NCBI RefSeq assembly: GCF_022267315.1
Contig: NZ_JAIKLE010000034.1
Coordinates: 1 to 64,000, forward strand
DNA: 64,000 nt
Source: Maribellus maritimus
Lineage (GTDB): Bacteria; Bacteroidota; Bacteroidia; Bacteroidales; Prolixibacteraceae
Reading direction: 5' to 3'
How positions within the stretch are numbered: the first letter of the stretch is position 1; each line of letters begins with the position of its first letter. The notes beneath the pieces were generated by a model that was given only the letters and a program-made list of their open reading frames with translations, was not told where the DNA came from and did no database searches. Made by a program: the position numbers and the translations under genes. Of the stretch, positions 41,123 through 63,428 are shown piece by piece.

Positions 41123-41197
41123 ATCTTTTCCCGCTGATTTTTGCTGATGTTCTCGCTGATATTCGCAGAAATCTGCGAATATCAGCGAGAAAAAAAT
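41123..41197 (-). repeat. Cobalamin-operon repeat, copy 1 (hairpin form)
   Basis: Lies between cbiG-cobM and cbiJ-cbiD. It holds a perfect 20-base inverted repeat, TTCTCGCTGATATTCGCAGA at 41150-41169 and its complement at 41172-41191, with 2 bases between. The terminal box (TTTCCCGC on the plus strand, 41127-41134) is 8 bases before the cbiJ-cbiD start codon. Confidence 0.8.
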
Positions 41198-41199
41198 AT

Positions 41200-42969
41200 T
41201 TACTTCCCTTTCCGAAAAGCATGGGCAAACTTTCGGCCGTATAATTTTGATTCGCCCGAGCGGTTATCAATAGCTTTTCCAACCACAATCAGCGTTGTCA
41301 TTTTTAGCTTGTTTTCTTTTACGGTTTGCGCAAGCGTTTCCAGGGTACACCGATAAATTTTCTCATCCTGCCAGGTTAATTTGTAGCACACAGCCACCGG
41401 CGTTTCCGCCGGATAATGCGCCATTAATTCGCTTTGTACTTTTTCTGCAATTGCCGCACTCAAATAAATACACATGGTACTTTGCGACTGCGCCAGTTTA
41501 TGCAGTTGCTCTTTTTCGGGCATGGGAGTGCGTCCTTCGCCACGGGTAAGAATGATGGTTTGTACTTCTTCCGGAATGGTGAACTGTGAGCGCAAAGCTG
41601 CCGCCGCTGCCTGAAAAGAAGAAATGCCCGGCGTAATATGATAATTCCAGCCCCACTCATCCATAATCGCCATTTGTTCCTGAATAGCGCCGTAAATACA
41701 TGGGTCGCCCGTGTGAAGTCGCACAATGGACAATCCGCGATCGTAAAAGCGTTTCATACTATCAAGTTGAGTTTGTAAATCCATTCCGGCAGAACTTTCT
41801 ACCACACAACCCGATTTTGCGTATTCAGTTAGCTCTCGCGGAACAAGGCTTCCGGCATACAAAATATAGTCAGCCGTTTGCAACAAACGTTTTCCCTTTA
41901 CCGAAACCAATTCCGGGTCGCCGGGACCGGCTCCTACAAATTCCACAAACCCTTTGCGTTCTTTTTGAGCATCCAGGGCAGCTGCCCAGGTAAAATATTT
42001 ATCGCCTGCTTTCAGTTTTGTTTTTTCAACCAATAAATTATTTTGCGACAAGTGCATGGCTGCTGCTTCGGCCACACCAGCGCTCCCAGTAACCGTTTCC
42101 ACTTTTTCAGAAGGATTCGGAACTTCATATTTTGAAAGAACATCTCCGGCAAAATTCTGCAACGGAAGATTCCATTTTTCGCCTAGATGCAGAAAAGCAT
42201 CTTCATCTTTTTTGAGTTCGGCTGTCCCCAAAGAAGTAATTGATAATTGCGAAATACGCTGCTCTTTTAAACTTATTTCCAGCATTTCTTGAAATTCGTT
42301 GGACGGAATTCCCCGCTGACATCCCAATCCTAAATGCACCATTGGCGGACGGTAAAAAATAGCTTTTTCATCAAAATCATATAAAAATGGAGTGACTGCC
42401 AAAATCAGTTCGTAATTTTCTATTCCAATATCTTTTGCTGCGAAAAACACATCAACAAAATCGGGACAATCAGATTCAAGAAACAAGGTTCCTTTATCAC
42501 GGGCTTCCAGCAGCAAAGCAGTTTTTTTTCGGTTTACAAAACGTCCCATCAAACGGGTGAGATTCCCGGCACATTCCATTTTCCAGTTAAATTGCCGCGG
42601 CAAAACATCCAGCGGCCAGAGTTTTGAAGTATCGCTAACAGTTGTAATTATCGGAACAGCGCCTAGTAAGTTGGCCAGTTTTTTAGCCAACTCGTTTGCA
42701 CCGCCAACATGCCCGGAAACCACCGGCTGTACAAATTGACCATTGGCATCAATGTTAATTACCGCCGGGTCGGTTTTCTTATTTTTTAGAAACGGAGCAA
42801 TCTCGCGGACACAAATTCCGAGCGCGCCAATAAAAACCAGTGCATTGCCCGACTGCCATAATTTTTTATAGTCAATAGGTTTTTGAACCAGTTCTGCTTC
42901 GGATTCTTTTGCCAGTAATTTTTCGGCCAGTATTTTCCCTTTTTCTGAATGTGTTATTATTGAAATCAT
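41200..42969 (-). CDS. cbiG-cobM: CbiG-CobM fusion (cobalamin synthesis)
   Basis: A 589-residue fusion. Residues 1-330 are CbiG, the cobalt-precorrin-5A hydrolase that opens the lactone and releases acetaldehyde (FIGALGICVREIAPF, SGHVGGANELAKKLA, and GLGCQRGIPSNEF in the C-terminal part). Residues about 341-589 are CobM/CbiF, the precorrin-4 C11-methyltransferase, with VGAGPGDPELVSVKGK for SAM binding, YAGSLVP and LHTGDPCIYGAIQEQM. The two catalyse neighbouring steps, giving a sensible bifunctional enzyme; CbiG confirms the anaerobic route. A dispersed repeat precedes the start by 8 bases. Confidence 0.94.
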   Translation of the reverse strand: MISIITHSEKGKILAEKLLAKESEAELVQKPIDYKKLWQSGNALVFIGALGICVREIAPFLKNKKTDPAVINIDANGQFVQPVVSGHVGGANELAKKLANLLGAVPIITTVSDTSKLWPLDVLPRQFNWKMECAGNLTRLMGRFVNRKKTALLLEARDKGTLFLESDCPDFVDVFFAAKDIGIENYELILAVTPFLYDFDEKAIFYRPPMVHLGLGCQRGIPSNEFQEMLEISLKEQRISQLSITSLGTAELKKDEDAFLHLGEKWNLPLQNFAGDVLSKYEVPNPSEKVETVTGSAGVAEAAAMHLSQNNLLVEKTKLKAGDKYFTWAAALDAQKERKGFVEFVGAGPGDPELVSVKGKRLLQTADYILYAGSLVPRELTEYAKSGCVVESSAGMDLQTQLDSMKRFYDRGLSIVRLHTGDPCIYGAIQEQMAIMDEWGWNYHITPGISSFQAAAAALRSQFTIPEEVQTIILTRGEGRTPMPEKEQLHKLAQSQSTMCIYLSAAIAEKVQSELMAHYPAETPVAVCYKLTWQDEKIYRCTLETLAQTVKENKLKMTTLIVVGKAIDNRSGESKLYGRKFAHAFRKGK

Positions 42970-42975
42970 ATCTTA

Positions 42976-43020
42976 TTTTTCTCGCTGATGTTCGCTGATT
43001 TATTACGCAGATTATCGCTT
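42976..43020 (-). repeat. Cobalamin-operon repeat, copy 2
   Basis: A half-length copy (TTTCTCGCTGATG, TTCGCTGATT, ACGCAGATTATCGCTT) fills the gap between cobL and cbiG-cobM. Its box TTTCTCGC (42978-42985) is 8 bases before the cbiG-cobM start codon. Confidence 0.75.
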
Positions 43021-43023
43021 ATT

Positions 43024-44205
43024 CTATTGTTTTTTAATTGCCAATATGGTAATTGGATTATGTTCGTCAACCGCCAGTTTTTGTTTTAATTGAAGTTTGT
43101 AATTATTTCGTTCGCCCCAGTTTAGGAAGTTATTTTCACTTTTTTCGCTTACAGAATTAAAAACGATAATTCCTTCATCCGTTAAATGTTGGTGTACATC
43201 ATCAAGAATAACGTCCATTTTTCCACCGTAACCGCCTAAAAATACAGCATCGGGTTGTTCCATGTTTTCTTTCTCAACTTCCATGTAGTCGCCAATAAAA
43301 AGCTCAATTCCGGGCGTTTGAAATTTCTTTGTGTTTTTTTCAATAAGTACCCGCGACTCTTCCCGTCTTTCAAAAGCAGTCACTTTTAAGTGTGGATATT
43401 GCAAACGCACCTCAATAGAAACACTTCCGGTGCAGGCGCCAATGTCCCAGAACACTTTTTTAGTGTGTAATTCCAAGGCCGCAATCGTAGTTAAACGCGC
43501 AGCCATTTTGGTAATCATTTTAGGGCGGCCTTCCAGAATTTCAAATTCAGTTTCCGGAATTCCTTTACGTGGAACTCGTTCATCAGTCATTTCCAGAAAA
43601 AAACAGTTGGGATGAGAAAATTTAAAATCAGCTGCCTTTTGAATTGAAAATTCTGCTGTTCGTTCGTCATTGCCACCCAAACATTCGCCGTATAACATAT
43701 GATAATTATTGTAGCCGAAATCCAACATTCGGGCAACAATGGTAGCTGGTGTATTTTTGCGATCGGTTAAAATGGCCAAACGTTTTTCGTCCTGAAGGAG
43801 CGCTTTATCAAACTCGTGCCAATCGCGGCCGGTAAGCGAAACGGTTTTGAACTCGCCATAATTTATTCGAAAGCGGTGAGCCAGCAGTTGTAGCGAATTA
43901 AAAACAGGAAATATTTTAAATTCTGCATTGGGGAATTCGCGTTTTAAAGTATTTCCAATTCCAAAAAACAAGGGGTCGCCCGAGGCAAAAATCAGCCAGT
44001 TTGTTTGTGTATTTTTTATCTCATCAAACAAAGTTGTTAACGGAGCAGTAATAAACGTCCATTTCGCATTTTTAGGAAGTTGCTTTCTTACCAATTCATA
44101 GTGCCGTTTCCCTCCTGCAAAATATTGTGATTCCGAAATTGTTTTTTGTTGCTCCTCCGTAAACTCCGGTTGTTTATCGTATATTCCTATTATTGTTATT
44201 TTCAA
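43024..44205 (-). CDS. cobL: CbiE-CbiT fusion, precorrin-6B methyltransferase (CobL)
   Basis: A 393-residue fusion equal to CobL. Residues 1-200 are CbiE, the C5,15-methyltransferase (IIGIYDKQP, FASGDPLFFGIGNTL, VSLTGRDWHEFD). Residues about 205-393 are CbiT, the decarboxylating part, with the Rossmann SAM site VFWDIGACTGSVSIE and FLGGYGGKMDVILD. The start is a TTG; no ATG fits as well before IIGIY. It follows the REP-associated transposase element, so the operon has been interrupted by insertion at this point but reading frames on both sides are intact. A truncated operon repeat lies 14 bases before the start. Confidence 0.93.
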   Translation of the reverse strand: MKITIIGIYDKQPEFTEEQQKTISESQYFAGGKRHYELVRKQLPKNAKWTFITAPLTTLFDEIKNTQTNWLIFASGDPLFFGIGNTLKREFPNAEFKIFPVFNSLQLLAHRFRINYGEFKTVSLTGRDWHEFDKALLQDEKRLAILTDRKNTPATIVARMLDFGYNNYHMLYGECLGGNDERTAEFSIQKAADFKFSHPNCFFLEMTDERVPRKGIPETEFEILEGRPKMITKMAARLTTIAALELHTKKVFWDIGACTGSVSIEVRLQYPHLKVTAFERREESRVLIEKNTKKFQTPGIELFIGDYMEVEKENMEQPDAVFLGGYGGKMDVILDDVHQHLTDEGIIVFNSVSEKSENNFLNWGERNNYKLQLKQKLAVDEHNPITILAIKKQ

Positions 44206-44215
44206 TTTGTTTCTA

Positions 44216-44233
44216 ATTTTTTCTCGCAGGTGA
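44216..44233 (-). repeat. Cobalamin-operon repeat, copy 3 (truncated)
   Basis: Only the terminal box and a few bases survive (TTTCTCGCAGGTG, box 44220-44227), 14 bases before the cobL start. The rest is replaced by the left end of the transposase element, suggesting insertion into the repeat or at its edge. Confidence 0.6.
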
Positions 44234-44254
44234 ATGTTTTTCTCTATTTGAAAT

Positions 44255-44900
44255 ACTTTAGGCTGAAAGCCTTGATTACTTTAATCCGACGGCAACGCCT
44301 CGGGAATAAAAACTCGAATTTTGTTCGCCCTGAAAGGGCAGCTTAATCTGTCCACAAATATTTTTCATTATAGTCGATGCCATATTCTTTTAAAAACAAT
44401 AAATATTCTTCCTCAAATGTCATCTTTGTATGATGTTGTTCCTGATTTTCGATGTAACGCTTTGTTTTTTCGTGTAGCGACGGACTAATAGAAAAAGCTC
44501 CATAACCTGCCTGCCAGGCAAAATTCAAATAATAAGTGTCTTTCGTTTTTATCCATCGACTGCTGTGACGTTTTATCTCTTCAACCAATTTAGCCAACGT
44601 TATATTTTTAGACATTACGCACAAAATATGAATATGGTCTCCCACGCCATTAATAATGATTGGGATTGAATCATTATCCTTTATTATACTTCCCATATAC
44701 GCATATAATTCATCCTTTTCTCGGGGGCGAATCAAGCACGAATTTCTCTTAACATGAAAAATAATATGTACAAATAGTTGAGATAATGATTGTGACATAA
44801 TTAAGTTGTATTAAGTTGCCCTTTCAGGGCGGGGTTAATATTTTATATTATACCCGAAGGCGTTGCCTTGGGCTAAAATAATTTGTCCTTTCAGGACGTT
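44255..44900 (-). mobile_element. REP-associated transposase element with triple-hairpin ends
   Basis: A Y1 transposase gene is bracketed by mirrored sets of three short hairpins. Left: AGGCT-GAA-AGCCT (44260-44272), CCGACGGC-AAC-GCCTCGG (44286-44303), GCCCT-GAA-AGGGC (44327-44339). Right: GCCCT-TTC-AGGGC (44818-44830), CCCGAAGGC-GTT-GCCTTGGG (44853-44872), GTCCT-TTC-AGGAC (44885-44897). The inner and middle hairpins are near-identical in reverse order, so the ends are inverted. The element sits inside the cobalamin operon between cobJ-cbiC and cobL. Confidence 0.7.
44343..44798 (-). CDS. REP-associated tyrosine transposase (Y1/HUH)
   Basis: A 151-residue Y1-type (IS200/REP-associated) transposase of full length. 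It begins MSQSLSQLFVHIIFHVKR, has the HUH metal motif in VGDHIHILCVM, and the catalytic tyrosine region KRYIENQEQHH. Such single-strand transposases cut at hairpins, and hairpins lie directly beside both ends of this gene. The frame is intact, so the element may be active or recently active. It is in the direction of the surrounding operon, which could allow readthrough. A related non-autonomous hairpin set lies at 58.9 kb. Confidence 0.9.
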   Translation of the reverse strand: MSQSLSQLFVHIIFHVKRNSCLIRPREKDELYAYMGSIIKDNDSIPIIINGVGDHIHILCVMSKNITLAKLVEEIKRHSSRWIKTKDTYYLNFAWQAGYGAFSISPSLHEKTKRYIENQEQHHTKMTFEEEYLLFLKEYGIDYNEKYLWTD

Positions 44901-45008
44901 CATCACAAATTTAAAATTCCAAATTACCATCCTTCAATTTATAAATATTCTACATTTTACCAGTATCATATCTTTACAAACATTTTATCATAAATCAGGA
45001 GAAATAAT

Positions 45009-46412
45009 TCATAGTCCCTCTCCCGGATGCATTGCCTTGGCCTCGTTCCAGCTTAAAATGGCATTGATGATGGTAGCTGCCACATTGCTGCCCCCGCGCC
45101 GACCATTTACAAACACTGCAGGAATATGGGGACACCCGTATTTTAGCTGCCACTTGCTTTCCTGAACATTCACAAAACCCACAGGAGCCGCAATTACTCC
45201 GGCTGGATTTGCCTTTCCATTACGCACCAGTTTAACCAATTCAATTAATGCTGTTGGAGCATTTCCAAAAGCAAAAACGGCATCGGGGTGCTCTTCTACC
45301 GCCAAACGAATTCCGGCCTGAGTTCGCGTTATTCCTTTTTCTTCTGCCAATGTTTTAACACGCTCGTCATCCAAATAACATTTAATTTTCAAACCTAATT
45401 TCTCAGCAACAGCACTGCGAATTCCACGGGTAACCATTGATACATCAGTGACAATTACCGGTGGTTTTCCTGAATGAAATTTTTCGTACAGCGCAGAAAC
45501 CACATTGTTTTTTAATTCGATAAAATCATTTAATTGAAAATCGGCTGTGGTGTGAATACAGTGCAAAGCAACCCAAATATGTTCCAACGACTTCCCTGCA
45601 AAATTAACTTCCTGCAAAATGGTGCGAAAACTCTCATTCATAATTTGCCGCCCCACTTTATCGTTAGATTTATTTTCGGTTTGCCGCGACAAATAACCAC
45701 GTGGCGTTATCATTTGGTCGCCAAATTTCCGTGTTTGACTGTTCCCAATGATAATCACCGTAAACATGTCGGCCATGGAAGCATCCAAATCTTTTAGGTA
45801 AATTACTTCTGTGCTTTCCTCTTCCCGTCCAACCTGACGAGCAATCCCAACAGGCGTTTCCGGGGAACGGACTTTCAGAAACAATTCCTTTAGCCGCATT
45901 AGTTGCCAAAAACGGCCACGACTTACCGGATTATAAATGGCAGTGATAAAATCGGCTTCGGCAGCAGCTTTAATCCGCTTTTCAATTTTTTCCCAGGGGG
46001 TAAGTAAATCCGACATGGAAATGGAACAAAAATCATGTCCCAGTGGCGCTCCTAATTTTGCAGCTGCGGCAAACATCGCACTTATTCCGGGAACTACTTC
46101 AATCTCAACCGCCGAATTATTTTTCTGCTTTAATTCCCAAAGCAAGGGAGCCATTCCATACACACCGGCATCACCACTGCTTATTACAGCTACCGTCTTT
46201 CCTTTTTCAGCTTCAGAAAAAGCGGCTTCGGCACGTTCCTGTTCTTTTTTCATGCCCGTGCTAATTTGCTCTTTTCCCTCGGTCAGATGCTCAACATAGC
46301 TCATATAATATTTGTAGCCTACCAAAACATCCGAGTTTTTGATGGCTTGTGTGGCCTCCGGTGTCAAATATTTTTCATCGCCGGGGCCTATTCCGATACA
46401 GTAAATTTTCAT
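45009..46412 (-). CDS. cobJ-cbiC: CobJ-CbiC fusion (cobalamin synthesis)
   Basis: Start set at MKIYCIGIGPGDE (46412); an upstream ATG at 46454 would only add residues read from the dispersed repeat. Residues 1-240 are CobJ/CbiH, the precorrin-3B C17-methyltransferase that contracts the ring (VISSGDAGVYGMA, VVPGISAMFAAAAKLG, YNPVSRGR). Residues about 255-467 are CbiC/CobH, precorrin-8X methylmutase (DVSMVTRGIRSAV, FAFGNAPTALIEL, PVGFVNVQESK, VFVNGRRGGSNVAATI). The steps are not adjacent in the pathway, unlike the other fusions here. CobJ lacks the extra C-terminal domain of some anaerobic CbiH proteins. The start codon abuts the repeat by one base. Confidence 0.93.
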   Translation of the reverse strand: MKIYCIGIGPGDEKYLTPEATQAIKNSDVLVGYKYYMSYVEHLTEGKEQISTGMKKEQERAEAAFSEAEKGKTVAVISSGDAGVYGMAPLLWELKQKNNSAVEIEVVPGISAMFAAAAKLGAPLGHDFCSISMSDLLTPWEKIEKRIKAAAEADFITAIYNPVSRGRFWQLMRLKELFLKVRSPETPVGIARQVGREEESTEVIYLKDLDASMADMFTVIIIGNSQTRKFGDQMITPRGYLSRQTENKSNDKVGRQIMNESFRTILQEVNFAGKSLEHIWVALHCIHTTADFQLNDFIELKNNVVSALYEKFHSGKPPVIVTDVSMVTRGIRSAVAEKLGLKIKCYLDDERVKTLAEEKGITRTQAGIRLAVEEHPDAVFAFGNAPTALIELVKLVRNGKANPAGVIAAPVGFVNVQESKWQLKYGCPHIPAVFVNGRRGGSNVAATIINAILSWNEAKAMHPGEGL

Positions 46413-46450
46413 TTTTCTCGCTGATTTATACTGATTTTTTCGCAGATGAC
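46413..46450 (-). repeat. Cobalamin-operon repeat, copy 4
   Basis: Half-length copy (TTTCTCGCTGATT, ACTGATTTTTTCGCAGATG) between cobI and cobJ-cbiC. The box TTTCTCGC (46414-46421) is only one base before the cobJ start codon, the closest of all copies. Confidence 0.75.
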
Positions 46451-46475
46451 GCAAATAAAATCATAATTACCAAAT

Positions 46476-47174
46476 TCATTCATTTTCAGGATAAACAATA
46501 AGCAATGAGAAATAAGGAATCCGTCGGAATTCCAACTCATCGGCATTGCTGGTAAAAAACTCATTTCCGGTTCCCACGCGCTCGGCATATAAAAATGAAC
46601 GGCCACAATTTTTCAGAAATGAATGCCATCCATCCAACACACTCATTTTCATAATAACGAAGGTTGACTGCCGTTTCAGAGCTTCTGAAATTGCATCAAA
46701 ACTTTCGGGTTTGGCCATCACTTCCAGCCCGGTTGTTTTTTCTACCAGCGGTTGTTCTCCCAAAGCAGAAGCGGCAATAAAAGCCGGAATCCCGGGAATT
46801 AACCGGCAGGGGATTTTTGCCTCTTTTGCCAGTTTAAAAACATAACCAAAGGTGCTGTAAAAAAATAAATCGCCTTCGCTTACCAACACCACATTTTTCC
46901 CGTTTTCGTATTCGTCTTTTATTCGAAGAAAAGCTTCGTTGTAAAATTTCTGGGTCTCCTTTCCTTTCATAGGAAACAGAAGTGGCTCGCAAGGCTTATT
47001 AATTTCCAGGCCGTCTAAAATGTTTGCTGAAAACGAACGATGTTGCCCGTTTTCCAATGAAGAGACAGGATAAAAAATGATGTCGGCGGCCTGCAATGCC
47101 CGAAAGCCTTTTAAGGTTATCAGCTCCGGTTCTCCGGGACCTAATCCAACTCCTGTAAATGTTCCTTTATTCAT
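46476..47174 (-). CDS. cobI: CobI/CbiL, precorrin-2 C20-methyltransferase
   Basis: A 232-residue enzyme that methylates (cobalt-)precorrin-2 at C20. Start placed at MNKGTFTGVGLGPGE (47174); the longer frame from 47300 would overlap cobB and read through the repeat. It shows the SAM-binding GVGLGPGEPELITLKG, FPMKGK, VLVSEGDLFFYSTFGYVFK and LIPGIPAFIAASALG, all usual for CobI/CbiL. It lies between cobB and cobJ-cbiC. A dispersed repeat lies 12 bases upstream. Confidence 0.94.
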   Translation of the reverse strand: MNKGTFTGVGLGPGEPELITLKGFRALQAADIIFYPVSSLENGQHRSFSANILDGLEINKPCEPLLFPMKGKETQKFYNEAFLRIKDEYENGKNVVLVSEGDLFFYSTFGYVFKLAKEAKIPCRLIPGIPAFIAASALGEQPLVEKTTGLEVMAKPESFDAISEALKRQSTFVIMKMSVLDGWHSFLKNCGRSFLYAERVGTGNEFFTSNADELEFRRIPYFSLLIVYPENE

Positions 47175-47184
47175 ATTTTCTTTC

Positions 47185-47232
47185 TTTTTCTCGCAGATTA
47201 ACGTGGATTTTTTCGCAGATTTTCGCTGAATT
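47185..47232 (-). repeat. Cobalamin-operon repeat, copy 5
   Basis: Copy (TTTCTCGCAGATT, ACGTGGATTTTTTCGCAGAT, TTTCGCTGA) between cobB and cobI. The box (47187-47194) is 12 bases before the cobI start. The copy overlaps the 3' end of cobB and codes for its last residues. Confidence 0.78.
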
Positions 47233-49121: not shown

Positions 49122-49167
49122 TTTCTCGCAGATTTACGCGGATTTTTTTCGCTAATTTTCGCAGATG
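49122..49167 (-). repeat. Cobalamin-operon repeat, copy 6
   Basis: Copy (TTTCTCGCAGATTTACGCGG, TTCGCTAATTTTCGCAGATG) between cobU and pduO. The box (49122-49129) is 15 bases before the pduO start codon. Confidence 0.78.
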
Positions 49168-49703: not shown

Positions 49704-49779
49704 TTTTTCTCGCTGATTGGCGCGGATTTATTCGCTGATGAGCGCTGAATATTTTCTGTGTAAATCTGCGAGAAACGAT
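49704..49779 (-). repeat. Cobalamin-operon repeat, copy 7 (full length)
   Basis: The clearest full-length copy. It begins TTTCTCGCTGATTGGCGCGG (49706) and ends AAATCTGCGAGAAA (49763-49776), so its ends are inverted repeats of about 13 bases with one mismatch; the total is 71 bases. The box is 13 bases before the cobU start codon; the other end is 7 bases from the stop of cobC. Confidence 0.82.
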
Positions 49780-52206: not shown

Positions 52207-52270
52207 TCTTTCTCGCAGATTCTTGCGGATTTTTTCGCTGATGTCCGCTGAAATATTTCTCTGCGAAAAC
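52207..52270 (-). repeat. Cobalamin-operon repeat, copy 8
   Basis: Copy beginning TTTCTCGCAGATTCTTGCGG and ending CTCTGCGAAAAC lies between cbiB and cobT. The box (52209-52216) is 14 bases before the cobT start codon. Confidence 0.78.
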
Positions 52271-55704: not shown

Positions 55705-55736
55705 AAAAACAACTGTATTTTTTCATTGCTTTTGTT

Positions 55737-55786
55737 TCTTTCTCGCAGATTTGCGCTGATTTTTTCGCGGATATATGCAGAAAAAC
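55737..55786 (-). repeat. Cobalamin-operon repeat, copy 9
   Basis: Copy (TTTCTCGCAGATTTGCGCTG, TTTTTTCGCGGATATATGCAG) between the amidase gene and cobQ. The box (55739-55746) is 34 bases before the cobQ start but only 12 bases before the ATG of a nine-codon frame that ends on the cobQ start. Confidence 0.75.
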
Positions 55787-55824
55787 AACATAAAAATATC
55801 TGCTAAATATATTTTTATCTCTTC

Positions 55825-56643
55825 TCATACATTACCTTTTTCATAAAACTGTCTCAACATTTCATTTCGTTTGAAATGGTTAAACCACGCCATTTTTGAT
55901 TGGTGAATTCGCGTAATTGTTTCGGAATCAAAATTGGCAATACAGTAGCCGCTACCTGTTTGGGTTTCTTCTGCCAGTACTTTCCCTTTTGGATCAAGAA
56001 TCATTGCCAGTCCGGGGAGAACAGATCCGCGCGAAGTTGTTCCGTTTTGGTTACAAACCATTGCATAACACGCATTGTCGTATGCCCGAGCGCACAAATA
56101 GCGTTTGAAGCGTTCGAGTTTTTCGTCTGCCGTTTCTTTGGGTGAGGCAAATCCCAAAGCCAGTAAATTTACACCTTGTTTGGCCTGCGCATAACTAATT
56201 TCGGGAAAATGCGTTTCAAAACACAGTTGCATTCCAATTGCTAATCCCCCAACCTTGAAGATCTGTATTTGATCTCCTGCTGTAAACACACTTTTTTCTG
56301 TCGGCCCAAGATGCGTTTTTCTATGTTTCCCCATTATTTCACCTCCTTCAAAAATGAAATGAGTTATGTAATATTTTTCGTTTTCCTCTTCAGGGAAGCC
56401 AACAGCAAAAGCGATTTGTGTGCTTTTTGAAAATTGTCGCAACTCGTCAAAAGCTTCAGTTTGGTATTTTAGCAACTCTTTAATTTCTTGTTTTGAAGTA
56501 ATATACCCAGACAAATTCAACTCGGGAAACAAGGCAAAACGAACCTGTTCTTTCTCCAAACAAGAAAGCATTTTCAACGTTTCCTGAAGGTTGGCGGAAA
56601 TATTGCCCGGTTCTGTGTTATGATATGCGGCTGCTATTTTCAT
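55825..56643 (-). CDS. Nitrilase-superfamily amidase in the B12 operon
   Basis: A 272-residue carbon-nitrogen hydrolase. The catalytic triad is visible: glutamate in LFPELNLSGYIT, lysine in GKHRKTHLGPTE and cysteine in MQLCFETHFPEIS. The family hydrolyses amides or nitriles, or makes amides. It is not a known step of cobalamin synthesis. Its position between the transporter genes btuD and cobQ, within one strand-continuous operon, suggests a task on corrinoids or on the aminopropanol/glutamine part; another example would be salvage by amide hydrolysis. None of this is shown. A repeat copy lies 15 bases upstream. Confidence 0.88.
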   Translation of the reverse strand: MKIAAAYHNTEPGNISANLQETLKMLSCLEKEQVRFALFPELNLSGYITSKQEIKELLKYQTEAFDELRQFSKSTQIAFAVGFPEEENEKYYITHFIFEGGEIMGKHRKTHLGPTEKSVFTAGDQIQIFKVGGLAIGMQLCFETHFPEISYAQAKQGVNLLALGFASPKETADEKLERFKRYLCARAYDNACYAMVCNQNGTTSRGSVLPGLAMILDPKGKVLAEETQTGSGYCIANFDSETITRIHQSKMAWFNHFKRNEMLRQFYEKGNV

Positions 56644-56656
56644 TTTATCTTATTTC

Positions 56657-56751
56657 GTTTTCTCGCATATTGACGCTGATTTTTTCACGGATTTGCACAG
56701 ATGATTCTGCGTAAATCTGCGATCTTACATCTGCTGTATCTGCGTGAAATA
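56657..56751 (-). repeat. Cobalamin-operon repeat, copy 10 (long)
   Basis: The longest copy (about 95 bases), starting TTTCTCGCATATTGACGCTG and running through further units ATTCTGCGTAAATCTGCGAT and TCTGCGTGAAATAT to the stop of btuD. The box (56659-56666) is 15 bases before the amidase start codon. Confidence 0.78.
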
Positions 56752-56752
56752 T

Positions 56753-57790
56753 TTATTTGTTATTAATTTTCAAATCCATACAATTCATCGTTTGTTTTAC
56801 TATCATTTCCACCGAGCTCTCAGATATTAATTGTTTTTCATTTTTATACAGATGAAAAGTGCTTTGCCCGTTTTTCCCGATCTCAATCCACCATTCCGGG
56901 TTCTCTCGCATTCCGGTGGTTTTTATGCCTCTTCGGGCAAAAGCACGGCGAAGCAATACATATTCAAAACCATGGCCTTTTATAGGTAATTCGTGAAAAT
57001 GTTCGTATTCCACCCGGAACAATCCGGTTTTTGTGTCGAATTCAATTCCTTTATTTTGAAACAGTCGTTGAAATGCATTTTGCAATAACAAATCTTCCGG
57101 GCTTCCGGTAATTAGCGGCCCGTTGTTGTGCAAAAGCCAGAGGCGGTCGGCCATTTGTAAAGCCAGGTCGAGGTCGTGTGTTGACAACAAAACCGACTTT
57201 CCCGATTCGGAGGAAATCCGTCGCAATAGCTGGATAATTTCAACGCGCGCGGGCAAATCCAAGAAAGCAGTAGGTTCATCCAGTAAAATAACAGGAGTGT
57301 CCTGTGCCAGAGCTTTGGCAATAAAAGCTTTTTGCCGTTCACCATCACTAATTGACGAAAGTAGCGCATCTTTTTTGTGCGCAATTCCGCATTGTTCAAT
57401 AGCGCGTTCTATAAATTGCAGATCCTTTTTATTCGTGCGCCCCAAAATTCCGGTATAAGGACTTCTTCCGTACGATACCAATTCTGAAACAGTTGCATTT
57501 GGAACCACAATGCGGTCGGTAAGGACAACACTCACCAGGCGGGAAATTTCTCTTTCAGTAAGGATGCCAATGGTTTTTCCGAGAATGCTGATTTGCCCAT
57601 CAAAAAAAGGTTGAAAACCACAAAGCGTGCGCATCAGCGTACTTTTACCTGCTCCGTTTGAGCCGAGCAGACAAACCAGTTCACCTTTGTTTATTTGGGC
57701 ATTCAGATTTGCTGCAACTATTTTTTGCTTCGAGCCGGAAGCATACCCAATGCTCAAATTGTTGATATTTATAAAATCGGCGCTGCCCAT
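56753..57790 (-). CDS. btuD: BtuD-type ABC ATPase
   Basis: A 345-residue ATPase of the FecE/BtuD importer class. Walker A is LLGSNGAGKSTLMRTLCG, the signature is ISDGERQKAFIAKAL (with SDGE in place of SGGQ, common in this branch), Walker B is VILLDEPTAFLDLPAR and the switch histidine is in LLSTHDLDLAL. About 90 extra residues after the ATPase domain (from about 255, with FEYVLLRRAFARRGIKTTG) form a C-terminal extension of unknown role. It pairs with btuC, whose stop overlaps its start region, and with btuF for corrinoid import. Confidence 0.93.
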   Translation of the reverse strand: MGSADFININNLSIGYASGSKQKIVAANLNAQINKGELVCLLGSNGAGKSTLMRTLCGFQPFFDGQISILGKTIGILTEREISRLVSVVLTDRIVVPNATVSELVSYGRSPYTGILGRTNKKDLQFIERAIEQCGIAHKKDALLSSISDGERQKAFIAKALAQDTPVILLDEPTAFLDLPARVEIIQLLRRISSESGKSVLLSTHDLDLALQMADRLWLLHNNGPLITGSPEDLLLQNAFQRLFQNKGIEFDTKTGLFRVEYEHFHELPIKGHGFEYVLLRRAFARRGIKTTGMRENPEWWIEIGKNGQSTFHLYKNEKQLISESSVEMIVKQTMNCMDLKINNK

Positions 57791-58890
57791 TATTCCATTA
57801 TTTTTTCTTTCCTACGTTTTAAAATGACCGAAATTACCACCGGCGCCCCAACAAATGCGGTTACCGAATTGATAGGCAATTCACTGTCAAGCCCCGGAAG
57901 CCGGGCAATGAGATTACACAACAAAGCGGTTGCGCCGCCAATAATACACGAGTTCAAAATCAATGTAAAATGATTGGAAGTGCGTGAAATCATTTTTGCT
58001 AAATGCGGAACAGCCATCCCTATAAAAACAATTGGTCCGCAAAATGCAGTAACCAAGGCCGTTAAAATTCCGGATGTAAAAATGATAAGAAAGCGGGCTT
58101 GTCGGATATTTAATCCAAGGTTACGCGCGTAGTGATCGCCCAACGCAAGCAAATTTAAAGGTTTACTTAACAGCAGACTCACCAGCGATAATGGGACCGT
58201 TACCGCCGCAAACAGTCCGCCGCGTTCCAGCGACAAGCGGCTAAAACTTCCTAACCCCCAAATCACATAATTATGAACATCTTCTTCGAGGCTGTAAAAT
58301 TTAAGAATTCCCACAACTGAATTGGAAAGGTAGCCAATCATAACTCCCATGATGAGTACGCTGAGCGTTCCGCCCACTTTCCGTGAAATAAACAGGATAA
58401 GCGCCAACACTGCCAGTGCCCCGCCCAGGGAAGCACCGGCCACCGCCAGGTCGCCCCACATACCTACACGGGCAAACGAAAAGCCAAACGCTTGTCCGGC
58501 TACCAGCAAAACAAATGCAACGCCCAGGCTTGCCCCCGAGGAAATTCCTAAAACAGAAGGGCCGGCCAATGGATTTCTAAAAAGTGTTTGCATGAGCAGC
58601 CCGGCAACTCCCAAAGCCATTCCGGCACTCACCGCTACCAATGTTTGCGGCAGACGTGTGCGAATTAATATATTTTGCCAAATGATATTTTCGGAACCTT
58701 TGCCGGAAACGATATGTATTACTTCTGAAAAAGGAATATTTACCGAACCCAGCGCCATATTCAACAGTATTAAAAAAAACAATACTGCGATGGATAATAG
58801 CAGCAGGACTTTGGTTGATATTTTTGCGTTTTGCTTTGGCATCCTGGTTATTTCATTAAAACATTTATTTATTAGCTCCCTATAAAACAA
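57790..58890 (-). CDS. btuC: BtuC-type corrinoid/iron ABC permease
   Basis: A 366-residue FecCD/BtuC permease with about ten membrane segments. Diagnostic blocks are RLPQTLVAVSAGMALGVAGL, QTLFRNPLAGPSVLGISSGA and GPIVFIGMAVPHLAKMISR. A start at Met-17 (MPKQNAKISTK, 58842) is possible and fits the usual length better; the longer start is kept here. Iron-siderophore permeases share this fold, so corrinoid specificity rests on the operon context. The gap upstream holds a triple-hairpin element instead of an operon repeat. Confidence 0.92.
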   Translation of the reverse strand: MFYRELINKCFNEITRMPKQNAKISTKVLLLLSIAVLFFLILLNMALGSVNIPFSEVIHIVSGKGSENIIWQNILIRTRLPQTLVAVSAGMALGVAGLLMQTLFRNPLAGPSVLGISSGASLGVAFVLLVAGQAFGFSFARVGMWGDLAVAGASLGGALAVLALILFISRKVGGTLSVLIMGVMIGYLSNSVVGILKFYSLEEDVHNYVIWGLGSFSRLSLERGGLFAAVTVPLSLVSLLLSKPLNLLALGDHYARNLGLNIRQARFLIIFTSGILTALVTAFCGPIVFIGMAVPHLAKMISRTSNHFTLILNSCIIGGATALLCNLIARLPGLDSELPINSVTAFVGAPVVISVILKRRKEKIME

Positions 58891-58896
58891 CTTATT

Positions 58897-58982
58897 GAAC
58901 CCACTTCGGGGTTCTGTATGCTTTCACCATTTTTTCCGCAGGTTATACCTACGGCTATTATTATTAAACCCCTATCCGGGGT
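58897..58982 (-). repeat. Triple-hairpin REP-like element
   Basis: Three short hairpins in series: GAACCC/GGGTTC (58897-58914), CCGCAGGT-TAT-ACCTACGG (58936-58954) and ACCCC/GGGGT (58968-58982). Number, order and spacing resemble the hairpin sets on each side of the transposase at 44.3-44.9 kb, so this looks like a non-autonomous relative. It fills the btuF-btuC gap. Confidence 0.65.
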
Positions 58983-59042
58983 ATAATTGTAGCATTTCAG
59001 ACTTATATCGTTACTTCTATTCAAGATATTCATTCTGCATTT

Positions 59043-60170
59043 CTACTTTAATAATTCATAAAACTCCGGTTCATAATCGGGCAAAAGTGTCGGATGAAGA
59101 AAATAGATGTAATCCGCAAGGATAACATCGGGTTTCATTGCATTTTGCTCGTAGTACGGTTTTTCCCGTATATTACAGGCAAAAATCCGGTTATTTTTAA
59201 AAGCTCTAAAATCGCCATAACGCGGGTCTTCTGCTACCATCGACTCTTTATTATAGCCGACCGGGTCGGGCAATAAAATTCGCCAGTAATCGCATTCGGC
59301 GGCAGTGGCATATACACTTTCAAAATCAAGCGGATAAGCTGCTTTTTTATCATCTTTAAAAATATATTCTGCGCCGGCATCTTTAAAATAATGAGCATAG
59401 AAACTGTCGCCACCCGGTACATACCAGGTTCCCGAACGCATTTTGCCCGAAAAAATAGTTGGCCGTTTTTTAACTTTTGCAGCCCGTGCTTTTAAAGATT
59501 CATATCGATTGGCAACTTCGTTAAAAATAGAATCAGCCTTTTCTTCCTGATTTGTAAAAGCCGCCATCATTTTTATCCATTCGGCCCGCCCCAGCGGTGT
59601 TTCTTCTTCGTACGCCGCCATCGGAACCAGGTTAAAACCCAAACTTTTCAAGGCATCATACCCTCCGGTTTTAAAAGGCGAAACGAAAATAACGTCGGGA
59701 TTCAGGCTGGCAATCAGTTCCGTATTAAAGTGCCCTTCCTTCCCTACACGTTTTACCAAACCTGCATCAATCCGTTTATTCATTCCTTCATGATAAAGAT
59801 GGCGGCTGCTATTGGTGGCAACAATATTTTCAATGTTATCGAGCGCAAAAAAGTAGGTAAGCTGCGTTGACGACAAACAGATAATTCGCTTGCAGGGAAC
59901 CGGAATTACTCCTTGTTGCGGCTCTTCCGTTTTTTCTGCGGGAACCAGTTTGAATGTTTCAAAATTTGTGCTGTCGCTGCCAATGCCGTATATTTTCAAT
60001 ATCTTGAAATTATCGCCATTTTGTATCTCAAAACTTTTGGCATATTTAAGAGATAAAGTTTTAAGTGTAACAGCGCTGTTTTTTTCAGATGTTTTTTTGC
60101 TACTATTAGAACATGAACTTCCCAATAATACGACACTTAAACAGAAATAATATACCAGTAATCTTTTCAT
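59043..60170 (-). CDS. btuF: BtuF-type corrinoid-binding lipoprotein
   Basis: A 375-residue substrate-binding lipoprotein: signal ending in the lipobox LLGSSC, then a linker, then a two-lobe helical-backbone fold with CKRIICLSSTQLTYFFAL, KEGHFNTELIASLNPDVIFV and EPFYELLK-like C-terminus. It is about 100 residues longer than E. coli BtuF because of an N-terminal segment (about 30-90). It should deliver corrinoids to BtuCD in the inner membrane. It starts 3 bases after the stop of the next upstream gene, so both are co-transcribed. Confidence 0.9.
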   Translation of the reverse strand: MKRLLVYYFCLSVVLLGSSCSNSSKKTSEKNSAVTLKTLSLKYAKSFEIQNGDNFKILKIYGIGSDSTNFETFKLVPAEKTEEPQQGVIPVPCKRIICLSSTQLTYFFALDNIENIVATNSSRHLYHEGMNKRIDAGLVKRVGKEGHFNTELIASLNPDVIFVSPFKTGGYDALKSLGFNLVPMAAYEEETPLGRAEWIKMMAAFTNQEEKADSIFNEVANRYESLKARAAKVKKRPTIFSGKMRSGTWYVPGGDSFYAHYFKDAGAEYIFKDDKKAAYPLDFESVYATAAECDYWRILLPDPVGYNKESMVAEDPRYGDFRAFKNNRIFACNIREKPYYEQNAMKPDVILADYIYFLHPTLLPDYEPEFYELLK

Positions 60171-60172
60171 TG

Positions 60173-60892
60173 TTATTCGTTTGTTGATTCATAAACCAAT
60201 GAGCTCACACATAAACCATTCTTATTGTATAAGAATTCTCGTTTCACATCGGGTTTTGCTCCCATAACATATTGGCGCAGATATGATTTTTCCGTCCCAT
60301 TGGGATTGTACCGATAAAAAGTTTTCACCAAGGCATCCCCATCTCCGGATAAACGCCATTTTTCATCCAGTTTTTCATTTGCATAAATACACTTGTAATT
60401 GTTTTCTGAAAGTAGTTTGTTTTTGCTATTGTATCTTTTCTTATTGATACAATCCCCCTTGTCAGAATAAACGGCAACAACACTCTTCGACAATACCGAA
60501 TCTTTGTAATAATCCGTTTGAATTACCTGCCCCTGCTCGTTATATCTATAAATACGCTTTTCTTCTGTATTTTTAGTAAAATCGTATTTAATGCAGTGTG
60601 TCCTTTCGTTTTCAGGAGAGTAAACATAAACGTAACGAACCAACATTAAAGTGTCTTTACTGTATTTAACCGTTTCAATTTTGTTTCCGTTTGCATCGTA
60701 GATATAATGAACAAAACTCACTAAATTGCGCTCCTCGTCAAACGATTGTTTTTCTATTTGTTGATTTTTAGTATTGTAAACATACTTTCTGACTCCGGTA
60801 AGCTTAAAGTTGTTCTTACTTTGGCAAATTCCACTTTCCCCCATAATTAGAAGAATACAAAAGGCAATGAATATAAATGTGTATTTTTTCAT
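60173..60892 (-). CDS. Exported repeat-containing protein of unknown function
   Basis: A 239-residue protein with a signal peptide (FIFIAFCILLIMGESGICQS). The mature part consists of about eight short beta-like repeats of the kind YDANGNKIETVKYS, YNEQGQVIQTDYYKD, YNSKNKLLSENNYK and YNPNGTEKSYLRQY, reminiscent of YD/RHS or MORN-like repeats in periplasmic proteins. I do not recognise a family with known function. It lies 3 bases before btuF and 6 bases after cbiK, so it is firmly part of this operon and may be a periplasmic partner in cobalt or corrinoid handling (inference). Confidence 0.7.
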   Translation of the reverse strand: MKKYTFIFIAFCILLIMGESGICQSKNNFKLTGVRKYVYNTKNQQIEKQSFDEERNLVSFVHYIYDANGNKIETVKYSKDTLMLVRYVYVYSPENERTHCIKYDFTKNTEEKRIYRYNEQGQVIQTDYYKDSVLSKSVVAVYSDKGDCINKKRYNSKNKLLSENNYKCIYANEKLDEKWRLSGDGDALVKTFYRYNPNGTEKSYLRQYVMGAKPDVKREFLYNKNGLCVSSLVYESTNE

Positions 60893-60897
60893 GTCAA

Positions 60898-61761
60898 TTA
60901 TAGCTTATTAAAAACCTCTTTTAAGTGTTTTATCCAGATGGCATTGATGGCATCAAATTCGGCCAATCCTTTTAAAACCGGGTTCACTGTAAACCCGGCA
61001 GCTTCGAGTTGCGATTTCCAACTGTCGGGTTCATCGCCGGCCATATCATTTTTGGCATGGTCGCCGGCCACCGACAAAAAAGGCTGTAGCCACACGGTTT
61101 TTGCGTTTTGCTTTTTTAATGCTGAAATTACTTCGTCCAGACTTGGGTAACCTTCCACTGTTCCGAGAAAAATCGAGGGCGATTGCTGCCATAAGTAATA
61201 CTGAAGCCCGGGATAGTAAATATTTGACTGGTGTGAAGTTCCGTGTCCCATCAACACTACAGCATCGGTAGATTTTCGTTCTTCCGGTAAAACAGAATGA
61301 AGTGCAGCACAGGTCTCTCCAATATCATTGTGATGGTAAAGCAGAGGTTTCCCCAGTACTATTTTTTGCGTATTCTTCGGAATATGGTTAAATGCATTTA
61401 CTGTTCTTTGCAGGTTTTCGAACTCTTCGCCAGGAATAACGTGTAAGGACTGAACCGCAATTTTTGTAAAACCATCGGCTCCCATTTTTGCAAGCGCTTC
61501 AGCCGGGGAATCAATCGCACGACCACGCTTTTTCAGAATATTACGAACGATATTTGACGTAAATGCCCAGCGGACTTCTACTCCGGGAAAGGTTTCTTTT
61601 GCCTGTTCCTCAATATGACCGAATGCCGACTGGGCACTGGCATAACTGGAACCAAACGATACCAGCAGAATGCCTGTCTTTTCTATTTGTTTATGCTCAT
61701 CCATTCCACTTGCTGTCAAGTTTATAAGAAAAATGGCTATGGCTATTATTTTGATTTTCAT
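60898..61761 (-). CDS. cbiK: Exported CbiK, sirohydrochlorin cobaltochelatase
   Basis: A 287-residue class II chelatase. After a signal peptide (KIIAIAIFLINLTASG) the CbiK fold begins with GILLVSFGSSYASAQSAFG. Metal-site histidines are seen in VQSLHVIPGEEF (H107) and VAGDHAKNDMAGD (H235), with MGHGTSH (H173) between. CbiK inserts cobalt into sirohydrochlorin, the first committed step of the anaerobic route. A signal peptide is known from the periplasmic CbiK of Desulfovibrio, which has been linked to metal or heme transport. It lies between a PepSY membrane protein and BtuF genes, so a periplasmic role is plausible; then cytoplasmic cobalt insertion would need another enzyme. Confidence 0.9.
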   Translation of the reverse strand: MKIKIIAIAIFLINLTASGMDEHKQIEKTGILLVSFGSSYASAQSAFGHIEEQAKETFPGVEVRWAFTSNIVRNILKKRGRAIDSPAEALAKMGADGFTKIAVQSLHVIPGEEFENLQRTVNAFNHIPKNTQKIVLGKPLLYHHNDIGETCAALHSVLPEERKSTDAVVLMGHGTSHQSNIYYPGLQYYLWQQSPSIFLGTVEGYPSLDEVISALKKQNAKTVWLQPFLSVAGDHAKNDMAGDEPDSWKSQLEAAGFTVNPVLKGLAEFDAINAIWIKHLKEVFNKL

Positions 61762-61773
61762 ATTTGTTTTATT

Positions 61774-61850
61774 TTTTTCTCACGGATTGACGCGGATTAC
61801 TTCGCAGATTGGCGCTGAAAGTATTTTCTGCGAAAATCAGCGTGAAATAT
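61774..61850 (-). repeat. Cobalamin-operon repeat, copy 11 (full length)
   Basis: Full-length copy from TTTCTCACGGATTGACGCGG to AAATCAGCGTGAAATA, with inverted ends, between the PepSY gene and cbiK. The box (61776-61783, one base changed) is 14 bases before the cbiK start. It overlaps the 3' end of the PepSY gene (stop at 61837). Confidence 0.8.
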
Positions 61851-63333
61851 ATTTTTCTTTCTTCTTACTTTTTGTTTTTCTCTTAATCCATTTCCAACTC
61901 AGCGCTACACCCGAAAAGCTTACTACAATTCCACCCAACGAGAGAATAACAAGCAGGAGTTTTCGCAGCCAGTCGTGTTCCACCAAAAATTGAAAATTGA
62001 ATTTGTGCAATCCCTGATAAAGCCACCGGTGTATTTTTTTGTTCTTTGTATATGAAGCAACTACTTTCCCGGTTTTGGGGTCGATATAAATTTGATTTTG
62101 CGCCCCATTATTCCAGCTTATCTTATATACGGGGAGCGGCCGTTTAAACATCCCTGATTCCTGATAATAATTATCATATTTGCGTTGTTCGTCAACGCAA
62201 AAAGAAGTGTTTTCAAAAAGACTTTTCGCCCTATTTTCTATTTGTTCCAGCGAAACCGTTTCCTGTTTATAAATAGTATCGGCAGTGCAAACATACACTT
62301 CCGGTGTTTGATAATCGCTGTAATACACCCACCATGCAGGTTTTCCCAAACTGTTTTTCCACTCTAACTTTCGAACGTTGCTTTTATTTTCAAGCGTCTG
62401 CCATAATCCGGCAAAGGAATGACCGGCATTAACCTGCTTCTTTTTCGATTTTTCCCAAATCTTCCGAGGAGAGAAAGTCTTTTGGCCGCTATTCCCTTTT
62501 TCAGGAAAATCGACAACTGAAAACAGCCCGCTGAGCAAAAAGGTAAATACAAAAAATCCAAAAAAGAAGCCGGAAATGTGATGCCATTTAAACCAGAATT
62601 TCTTATAGGGCGTAATGTCTCCAGCCCACTTTCTTTTTCTACGTTTTTTCATACGGATGATTCCGGCAATCATTCCGGAAAGACAGACGAACAAGCCAAT
62701 TGATGAAAGCCAGATAACAGTTTTGTTCCAAAGCTGCACTTTCAGGCGTAACGAGCGAAAATATATCCAGTGGGGAATAGCTCCTACACGCGCCATCCAG
62801 CGTGTTTTCCGATTGGTTTGCTGAACAATAGTACCGGTTTTTGACGATACATAAAACACCGTGTGCTGCTTGTCGTTCATATAAAACTTATAGACAGGGA
62901 GCAAGGCCTGATAATAACTCCAGGGCATCCACTGGTCTAGTTTATTGATTTCAACCGATTTCAAAGCAGAAGCTCCCAAAAAACGTTCAGCTTCGTTTTT
63001 ACAGATTTCTTCGGAAAAATCAGGAATACGCTGAAGTGTTGTTGCATCGTAAACCTGCTGCGCCCTTTTTCCCATAGCTATCCGATACACCGGTCTGTTA
63101 TTTAATTTATCTAACCCAACAGCGCCTTTAATGGAATCGGGTAACGGTTGAATGGCCTCAAAATCGGATAAAGAAAATGGCTCCAGAAAAAGGAAACGTT
63201 CTTCGCGCGAAGCGTGTGGAAAGCCTGCAAAAATGAGCACGATTCCGGAAACGAACCAAACAAAAAACATCAGGCTAAGGGAAATACCCGTAACCTGATG
63301 AATTTTCAATGTTATTTTTTTGAACAGACGCAT
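61837..63333 (-). CDS. PepSY-domain membrane protein
   Basis: A 498-residue protein of the PepSY_TM family with four or more membrane segments: MFFVWFVSGIVLIFAG near 20-40, VIWLSSIGLFVCLSGMIAG near 210, GFFFGFFVFTFLLSGLFS near 260 and LLLVILSLGGIVVSFSG near 470. The soluble parts carry PepSY units (VYKFYMNDKQHTVFYVSSKTG and QIYIDPKTGKVVASY). Such proteins often accompany TonB receptors and are thought to reduce ferric siderophores; XusC of Bacteroides is one. Here it is set between a BtuB-like receptor and CbiK, so cobalt or corrin reduction is an alternative (inference). The last residues, ending KKKEKYISR, are encoded inside a repeat copy. Confidence 0.88.
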   Translation of the reverse strand: MRLFKKITLKIHQVTGISLSLMFFVWFVSGIVLIFAGFPHASREERFLFLEPFSLSDFEAIQPLPDSIKGAVGLDKLNNRPVYRIAMGKRAQQVYDATTLQRIPDFSEEICKNEAERFLGASALKSVEINKLDQWMPWSYYQALLPVYKFYMNDKQHTVFYVSSKTGTIVQQTNRKTRWMARVGAIPHWIYFRSLRLKVQLWNKTVIWLSSIGLFVCLSGMIAGIIRMKKRRKRKWAGDITPYKKFWFKWHHISGFFFGFFVFTFLLSGLFSVVDFPEKGNSGQKTFSPRKIWEKSKKKQVNAGHSFAGLWQTLENKSNVRKLEWKNSLGKPAWWVYYSDYQTPEVYVCTADTIYKQETVSLEQIENRAKSLFENTSFCVDEQRKYDNYYQESGMFKRPLPVYKISWNNGAQNQIYIDPKTGKVVASYTKNKKIHRWLYQGLHKFNFQFLVEHDWLRKLLLVILSLGGIVVSFSGVALSWKWIKRKTKSKKKEKYISR

Positions 63334-63344
63334 GTGCTGTTTTT

Positions 63345-63428
63345 TATTTCTCGCTGATTAACGTTGATTCTTTTCGCAGATAATCGCAGAATGTTATCAT
63401 AAATGCTTCTGTAAATCAGCGTAAATCG
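63345..63428 (-). repeat. Cobalamin-operon repeat, copy 12 (full length)
   Basis: Full-length copy from TTTCTCGCTGATTAACGTTG to AAATCAGCGTAAATCGC between the TonB receptor and the PepSY gene. The box (63347-63354) is 13 bases before the PepSY start codon. Confidence 0.8.

Follow-up and report, generated by a model that had tools for sequence, protein, structure and literature searches.

Repeats in the gaps of a Maribellus maritimus cobalamin operon as probable mobile-type elements with a possible GxxExxY partner

The window analysed here, a 64,000-nucleotide (nt) stretch of Maribellus maritimus (positions 1 to 64,000 of contig NZ_JAIKLE010000034.1, assembly GCF_022267315.1), carries on its minus strand a cobalamin (B12) operon that runs from a TonB-dependent receptor gene (63.4 kilobases (kb) and beyond) to a CbiJ-CbiD fusion at 39.3 kb. 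The gaps of this operon contain a short repeat in twelve copies, each just before a start codon. We consider it somewhat probable that these repeats are small mobile-type elements that arrived with the operon from a repeat-rich genome, probably as gene-less versions of a unit that encodes a GxxExxY protein. The evidence comprises the repeats and their positions, their confinement to the operon in the host, dispersed relatives in other genomes, a conflict between the operon and rpoB trees, and arms of this kind flanking GxxExxY genes.

The repeat is composed of a 7-nt unit, ATCWGCG in the sense direction, that recurs every 10-11 nt in arms terminating in GAGAAA. Its right half holds four such units in two 22-nt halves, with an approximate sense consensus of TTCWGCGnnnATCWGCGAAAAAATCNGCGnnAATCWGCGAGAAA and a mean column identity of 80% over 11 aligned copies. 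Fuller copies start with the inverse of the right half (TTTCTCGCAGATT...), and the ends of the element read TTTCTCGC and GCGAGAAA; these copies have terminal inverted repeats without a gene, and half-copies miss one end. Within the window, TTTCTCGCWGATT was matched 24 times at no more than two mismatches (4.84 expected) and GCGGATTTTTTCGCAGAT 7 times at no more than three (0.13 expected). The twelve sites listed in the earlier note were all real, as 11 aligned right halves and one remnant at 44.2 kb. Its box-to-start distances (8, 8, 14, 1, 12, 15, 13, 14, 34, 15, 14 and 13 nt) were exact, and the common orientation it described was confirmed, all 12 terminal boxes lying on the coding strand of the operon. 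The region 1-41 kb, which it had called free of copies, held two 2-mismatch matches, a chance level. The inverted ends that it ascribed to full-length copies are present at 41.1 kb, where a 19-bp perfect hairpin is joined by an extra tandem pair, but left arms were seen by eye in 6 of the 12 copies, one of them weak; about half of the copies retain the right arm alone. An element was found in 12 of the 13 operon junctions longer than 5 nt (an IS200-like gene being counted within one junction) and in none of the 8 junctions that overlap or span 5 nt or less.

In the 7.33-Mb host assembly, the two-unit pattern ATCNGCGNNAATCWGCGNGAAA gave 16 matches at no more than two mismatches, all within the operon (13 on the coding strand and 3 on the other), and the reversed-pattern control gave none. 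At three mismatches, 16 of 35 matches fell outside the operon, with the control still at zero. A sequence model of the 11 copies recovered them at E values of 1e-13 to 2e-10; outside the operon, the best value listed was 0.047, among the 150 of 5361 host candidates that were scored. The same pattern at no more than two mismatches gave 0 to 2 matches in each of 36 congeneric genomes; the one match of a named Draconibacterium orientale locus corresponds in position and sequence to that of the congeneric genome G006. The profile search that the earlier note had called for thus placed the strong host matches in the operon and found a near variant dispersed in relatives. That a single copy multiplied inside the operon alone, by short-range hopping or gene conversion, would fit the location of every such match of the exact variant within 22 kb. 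We nevertheless regard it as very improbable: the copies diverge widely, the spacing variant recurs, at other junctions, in the operon of another genome of the genus (G012), and relatives carry the near variant throughout their genomes.

This near variant, which has one base fewer between its last units, was matched 35, 26, 11, 23 and 37 times in genomes G006 (D. orientale), G008, G012, G034 and G002, 7 times in G017, twice in G020, not at all in G031 and twice in the host (once in the operon); the reversed-pattern control gave no match in any of these nine genomes. An initial result with the first pattern, which has two bases between the last units, that the repeat was missing from the genus was overturned by the sequence model and the shorter pattern. 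Among 78 loci of the D. orientale clade, chosen by model or pattern matches, a unit detector found 76 elements compared with 2 in reversed sequence, 12 of the 76 lying inside called open reading frames (ORFs) or at edges. Orientation was counted over 37 locus groups with one representative each, of which 10 had no resolvable element or neighbour; 4 of the 27 resolvable representatives lay within 30 nt of uncurated ORF-call ends. Co-directional genes bordered 21 of these 27 loci, convergent genes 4 and divergent genes 2, and the tandem end at co-directional loci faced the start 15 times and the stop 6 times (p = 0.078). One same-locus element (L269, L276 and L278) was found in G002 and G008 in the orientation opposite to that in G012, which suggests inversion in place.

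Beyond the genus, a scan of the phylum at no more than one mismatch matched 33 of 395 genomes, the host included. In the fetched parts of two distant repeat-rich genomes, 30 of 32 matches (G326) and 26 of 30 (G254) were intergenic, 13 and 10 of them, respectively, between converging genes, and no fixed distance to a start was found. One genome of the same order, G411, had five matches of a two-unit form ending in GGTAAA, four of which cluster in an 8-kb stretch of a single contig (L058, C24), and is possibly a nearer relative of the donor. The earlier note had raised the idea of a mobile repeat that targets gene starts. Its mobile part is supported, because the D. orientale clade has dispersed near-variant copies, and also by the bracketing of nuclease-type genes described below. 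Start targeting is weakly supported: all 12 operon copies share one orientation, but the clade shows the 15-to-6 bias and distances in G326 and G254 scatter. The closeness to starts seems to be a by-product of tight gaps, together with a slight bias in orientation.

A strong match to the CbiH-CbiC gene was found in 4 of 37 genomes of the genus, namely the host, G006, G008 and G012. In the rpoB tree, the last three fall into one clade of 10 genomes (support 100/99), with 98.4-98.9% identity to each other and 92% to the host, which is placed beside G031 at 99.5% identity. The CbiHC tree instead pairs the host with D. orientale (100/99) and G008 with G012 (100/99), and for 13 of 13 comparable operon proteins the host and D. 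orientale were closer than D. orientale and either G008 or G012 in best single alignments. This conflict means that a transfer is needed somewhere, and the copies therefore probably arrived with the operon. The operon of D. orientale (L099-L100) looks decayed, because its CbiH-CbiC gene is interrupted by stops and no relatives of CobU, CobC, CobS or CbiK were found in the 40 kb searched. The sister genome G031 has no CbiHC match, lacks the operon and gave no match of the variant. Window positions 33750-36337 align, interrupted by a gap, to positions 7328474-7330257 of G031. The G031 sequence that follows is similar to contig positions 67148-67227 (80 bases), where a broken DDE-type transposase region has its edge, so that G031 lacks about 31 kb in which the operon is contained. 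Both loss in G031 and gain in the host lineage are possible. The DDE-type transposase gene itself lies in two pieces at contig positions 67222-68313 (positions 4223-5314 of L054), upstream of the operon.

Comparison of junctions with those of the three congeneric operons is consistent with insertion into short gaps. Between the receptor and PepSY genes, the aligned gene-end distance including the stop is 12, 9 and 10 nt in G006, G008 and G012, versus 95 nt from stop to start in the host; between the CbiG/F and CbiJ-CbiD genes, it is 11 nt in all three, versus 81 nt in the host. The 13 nt before the host PepSY start, TAAAAAACAGCAC, are similar to the G012 gap in its entirety, stop codon included (TAAAAACAGC), which would fit an insertion of the element at the former stop codon of this junction. 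The 8-15 nt that separate most boxes from the next start may thus be what remains of short ancestral gaps, and probably not a selected distance.

The candidate partner of the repeat came from loci in which two arms face each other. When 129 repeat-selected loci were scanned for facing arms 250-1300 bases apart, the arms held a gene at six loci (L064, L154, L177, L262, L270 and L275), and in each case it belonged to the GxxExxY family; genes of other kinds were not detected between such arms, and five further loci with facing arms had no ORF longer than 55 codons. L262, L270 and L275 represent one locus in three species, with an isocitrate dehydrogenase-like gene (named by eye) on either side, and the GxxExxY gene of L270 is broken. 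At two more loci (L060 and L254) a GxxExxY relative adjoins arms, giving 8 loci, 6 of them independent, where the gene is enclosed by or adjoins inverted arms. The bracketed protein matched TIGR04256 (6e-40, 136 bits with a cut-off of 35) and PF13366 (PDDEXK_3, 5e-39). Residues D69, E79 and K81, invariant in all 10 aligned GxxExxY proteins, are predicted from the family name, PD-(D/E)XK, to be catalytic. A GxxExxY relative occurred in 7 of 118 repeat-selected loci (602 kb) versus none of 102 other loci (955 kb), where one of the 7 (L155) lies about 2.5 kb from the repeat and is unbracketed, and the 102 other loci partly overlap one another. The inverted flanks at 6 of the 8 loci outscored all 300 shuffles; L254 and L060 were equalled or exceeded by 3 and 11 of 300, respectively.

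A second sample was selected by the protein alone. It comprised all 8 plasmid records found, each tested at one place (8 of 10 places in total), together with the full set of 8 viral-contig loci that a profile had detected; inverted repeats were scored between 160-nt flanks. Inverted flanks of other sequence were present at 11 of these 16 GxxExxY loci, or 10 of 15 if two viral contigs that look like one sequence (L333 and L334) are counted once. On plasmids, 3 of 8 loci (Bacteroides, Bernardetia and Gemmatirosa) had flanks that outscored each of 200 shuffles, a Treponema locus was weak (16/200) and four had none, the Sphingomonas gene showing by eye a tandem array before its start. On viral contigs, the flanks beat all (7 loci) or all but one (1 locus) of 300 shuffles. 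Among 12 of 13 control genes at the plasmid loci, none reached 0/200, the lowest being 2/200 for a neighbour that shares the Treponema arm; in a further control set, 2 of 25 ORFs reached 0/100. The arms in this sample are quite different sequences, several of them visibly tandem with a period near 9, and some plasmid GxxExxY genes are co-directional within gene rows, as between fabD and fabG or after radA. A single-protein search of the viral contigs gave no GxxExxY match where the profile found 8, the exact repeat was absent from them, and no GxxExxY match was obtained in phage records. No description of GxxExxY function, of flanking arrays or of a link to repeats was found in the open-access literature searched.

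GxxExxY might be carried as a passenger or be a nuclease with some other function at the repeats, with the arms belonging to a different mobility system. No movement was seen, a single-domain protein of a nuclease family is no known transposase, and not every protein-selected locus has strong arms, all of which would suit such a role. We still judge it unlikely, as the association is seen with unrelated arm sequences and in several phyla, and GxxExxY was the sole gene family found between facing arms in the 129 loci scanned.

The closest parallel among known systems is that of repetitive extragenic palindromic (REP) sequences, bacterial interspersed mosaic elements (BIMEs) and REP doublets forming hairpins (REPINs) with their REP-associated tyrosine transposase (RAYT, TnpA_REP). 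These, too, are small inverted elements that lie in gaps, both intergenic and inside operons, with dispersed copies and copies that bracket a gene for a nuclease-type enzyme. However, a REPIN is one imperfect palindrome with a GTAG-type tag, whereas the arms described here are arrays of 7-nt units, and RAYT is a Y1 HUH transposase, whereas this family brackets GxxExxY (PD-(D/E)XK). A GTAG/CGTC-type tag at the palindrome foot is a feature of REPINs; no such tag was found at the ends of the operon elements. That the repeats are nonetheless REPINs moved by a Y1 transposase appears improbable. Their small, inverted, intergenic and dispersed character would agree with it, as would a Y1 gene inside the operon. 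Bacteroidetes TnpA of subclass 2.6 are reported (PMC6006769) to be flanked by atypical secondary structures, which could be identical with the operon repeat. The operon Y1 protein, though, fits IS200 better than REP-associated transposases (46 versus 19 bits, both below cut-off), and its gene is flanked by other palindromes. With this protein as query, a Y1 relative was found in 1 of the 118 repeat-selected loci (the loci being the scope of the search), split over two frames and accompanied by arms on a single side, while all six gene-holding arm pairs carry GxxExxY. Elements of the miniature inverted-repeat transposable element (MITE) type, such as the enterobacterial RU units, share the short inverted ends, the lack of a gene and the intergenic location. 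They differ in that the operon repeat has no target duplication found, its ends are arrays of tandem units, and its partner is no known transposase. GxxExxY units are candidates for MITE-type parent elements.

The earlier note had also offered a shared leader, translation or RNA-processing element of the operon, and this idea lost ground. The sequence model was applied to 23 other B12 loci, made up of 8 of a first set (without D. orientale and a partial Ruminococcus locus) and 15 of a second, and also to the three congeneric operons. It gave a clear copy in G012 (E = 4e-6) and a weaker one in L044, a Marinilabiliaceae metagenome-assembled genome (5e-4); in the other 22 of the 23 loci, nothing better than E = 1.4 was found with the model, junctions being viewed by eye. 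Degenerate copies in the same sense stand at three junctions of the G012 operon (CbiK-BtuF, BtuC-BtuD and CbiHC-CbiET), two of these copies being readable with the 3-nt unit spacing of the host operon, while the dispersed copies of G012 have the 2-nt form. In L044, a degenerate same-sense copy lies directly before CbiG/F, by eye with 3-nt spacing. Possible remnants were seen in the operons of G006 and G008. Other Bacteroidota B12 junctions (L045, L189, L190 and L192) showed, by eye, different tandem-unit repeats of the CGCAAAG, AGAGAAGT and GGGGCAAA classes.

B12-wide regulation by the repeat was rejected on account of the 22 loci without a clear copy. A shared RNA fold was likewise rejected, with 5 of 11 junction RNAs folding at z ≤ -2.3 and the remaining 6 no better. 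At Rfam gathering scores, no structured RNA was detected in the window, the sole match being a cobalamin riboswitch upstream of the receptor gene, beyond the window on the same contig. A B12-specific leader is thus unsupported, because no clear copy was found in 22 of 23 other B12 loci, 5 of 11 junction RNAs fold, and copies in relatives stand beside unrelated genes in both orientations.

A working 5' leader, in which tandem units upstream of the start bind an RNA-binding protein that co-regulates the B12 cistrons, is a related reading that follows a proposal for the TAACTGA repeats of Beggiatoaceae. Those heptamer repeats of Beggiatoaceae, Cyanobacteria and Bacteroidetes are reported (PMC4679880) as direct arrays closely upstream of starts, in forward orientation and also within operons, and their patchy spread suggests horizontal transfer by a mechanism that is not evident. 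Their unit TAACTGA differs from ATCWGCG repeated every 10-11 nt, and the operon repeat has, unlike them, inverted arms and a linked gene family. Such a leader would account for the uniform orientation, for 10 of the 12 boxes lying 8-15 nt from the start, for the occupation of nearly every open junction and for the degenerate same-sense copies of equal spacing in G012 and L044. We hold it to be quite improbable, given the lack of clear copies in most other B12 loci and of more than remnants in D. orientale, the unrelated neighbours of copies elsewhere, one of which was inverted in place between species, and the 6 junction RNAs without a notable fold.

According to our preferred reading, that of mobile-type elements carried in by the operon, the repeats would have been inserted into short stop-to-start gaps while the operon resided in a repeat-rich genome, and the copies would then have reached the present host together with it, a direction and order of events that we infer from the trees and from the dispersed relatives. 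The arms may form hairpins in single-stranded DNA that GxxExxY would recognise, and gene-free copies could either be mobilised in trans or result when the GxxExxY gene is lost. Insertions would survive in gaps between co-transcribed genes. The operon would have brought the copies into a host presumed to be without the moving system, where they would be expected to act as near-neutral spacers, some forming hairpins after stop codons.

Several observations weigh against this reading. At their level of column identity the copies do not look recent, viewing the junction strings by eye revealed no target-site duplication, and an empty site within a species was not found either. The exact variant was dispersed in none of 65 other genomes of the same order (60 scanned at no more than two mismatches and 5 at no more than one). 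D. orientale, which has the nearest operon, holds no full copy and possible remnants at most, and degenerate same-sense copies occur in the B12 operons of G012 and L044. In G031, the region corresponding to the neighbourhood of the operon has an eroded look, and this genome may have lost the operon. Gaps in G006, G008 and G012 are not all short, measuring 59, 27 and 27 nt for CbiE/T-CbiG/F, 15, 43 and 73 nt for CbiHC-CbiE/T, and 101, 7 and 7 nt for CbiL-CbiHC, respectively. Five of the 16 protein-selected GxxExxY loci are without strong inverted flanks. Finally, the 12-of-12 orientation in the host exceeds the 15 to 6 of the clade, and we cannot fully explain it.

The individual elements, all on the minus strand, are given here from the 3' end of the operon upward, with gene names (BtuC, CobC, PduO and others) used as labels from general Pfam domain matches. 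A full element lies in the CbiG-CbiF-type/CbiJ-CbiD junction (41127-41192), its box, with the variant GCGGGAAA, 8 nt before the ATG and its fold at z = -6.6. The right half only is found in the CbiE/T-like/CbiG-CbiF-type junction (42978-43021, 8 nt before the ATG). The junction from CbiH/C to CbiE/T-like holds a remnant, a lone terminal box (44220-44232) 14 nt before a TTG start, adjoining an IS200-like insertion; the Y1 transposase gene of the latter (44343-44798, minus strand, PF01797, E = 1e-19) is the one flanked by other palindromes. Right halves only precede CbiH-CbiC (46414-46453, 1 nt before the ATG) and stand in the CobU/adenosyltransferase gene junction (49122-49166, 15 nt), and a right half lies at the CbiA-type/CbiL-like junction (47187-47231, 12 nt). 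The phosphatase (CobC-like)/CobU junction has a full element with inverted ends (49706-49775, 13 nt, z = -2.3), the CbiB/CobT-type junction one with a degenerate left arm (52209-52269, 14 nt, z = -2.6) and the nitrilase-like/CbiP-type junction a right half (55739-55784, 34 nt), each box again before an ATG, as are those that follow. In the ABC-transporter ATPase/nitrilase-like junction, a full element (56659-56749, 15 nt, z = -3.4) was called in the opposite orientation by the automatic caller, because its left arm has more recognisable units; its intact box is on the start side. Full elements also lie at the PepSY/CbiK junction (61776-61847, 14 nt, z = -3.3, box variant GTGAGAAA) and in the TonB receptor/PepSY gene junction (63347-63426, 13 nt). 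Those at 47.2 and 61.8 kb overlap the end of the upstream gene and contain its stop codon.

The one open junction free of the element, BtuF-like to BtuC-like (152 nt, 58891-59042), has a different palindromic repeat, CCCCGGATAGGGG ... AACCCCGAAGTGGGTT, which shares only short matches of up to 16 bases with the flanks of the IS200-like gene (44.3-44.8 kb). Genes for a Radical SAM-like protein (below cut-off), a CobW-type GTPase and a lactate-racemase N-terminal-type protein adjoin the operon (34165-38444), the first two matching G031 in part. At 1797-21521 lie, one after another, long genes that by eye resemble those for sensor kinases and response regulators, several with repeated PAS-like stretches.

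On a broader view, which we advance tentatively and rate a little below an even chance, GxxExxY genes together with inverted arrays of units of about 9-11 nt (CGCAGAT, CACAGAG, CGGAAT and other classes) may constitute a widespread, undescribed class of minimal mobile elements in several phyla, each with one PD-(D/E)XK-type protein encoded between its arms, whose gene-free copies enter operon gaps; the repeats of this B12 operon would be one population stranded by horizontal transfer. If true, intergenic repeats built of tandem units, a class for which no mechanism of spread is evident, would gain a partner protein, and a small nuclease-type family for which we found no described function would gain a testable role. 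Repeats confined to an operon could then mark where that operon once resided, and not a regulatory code.

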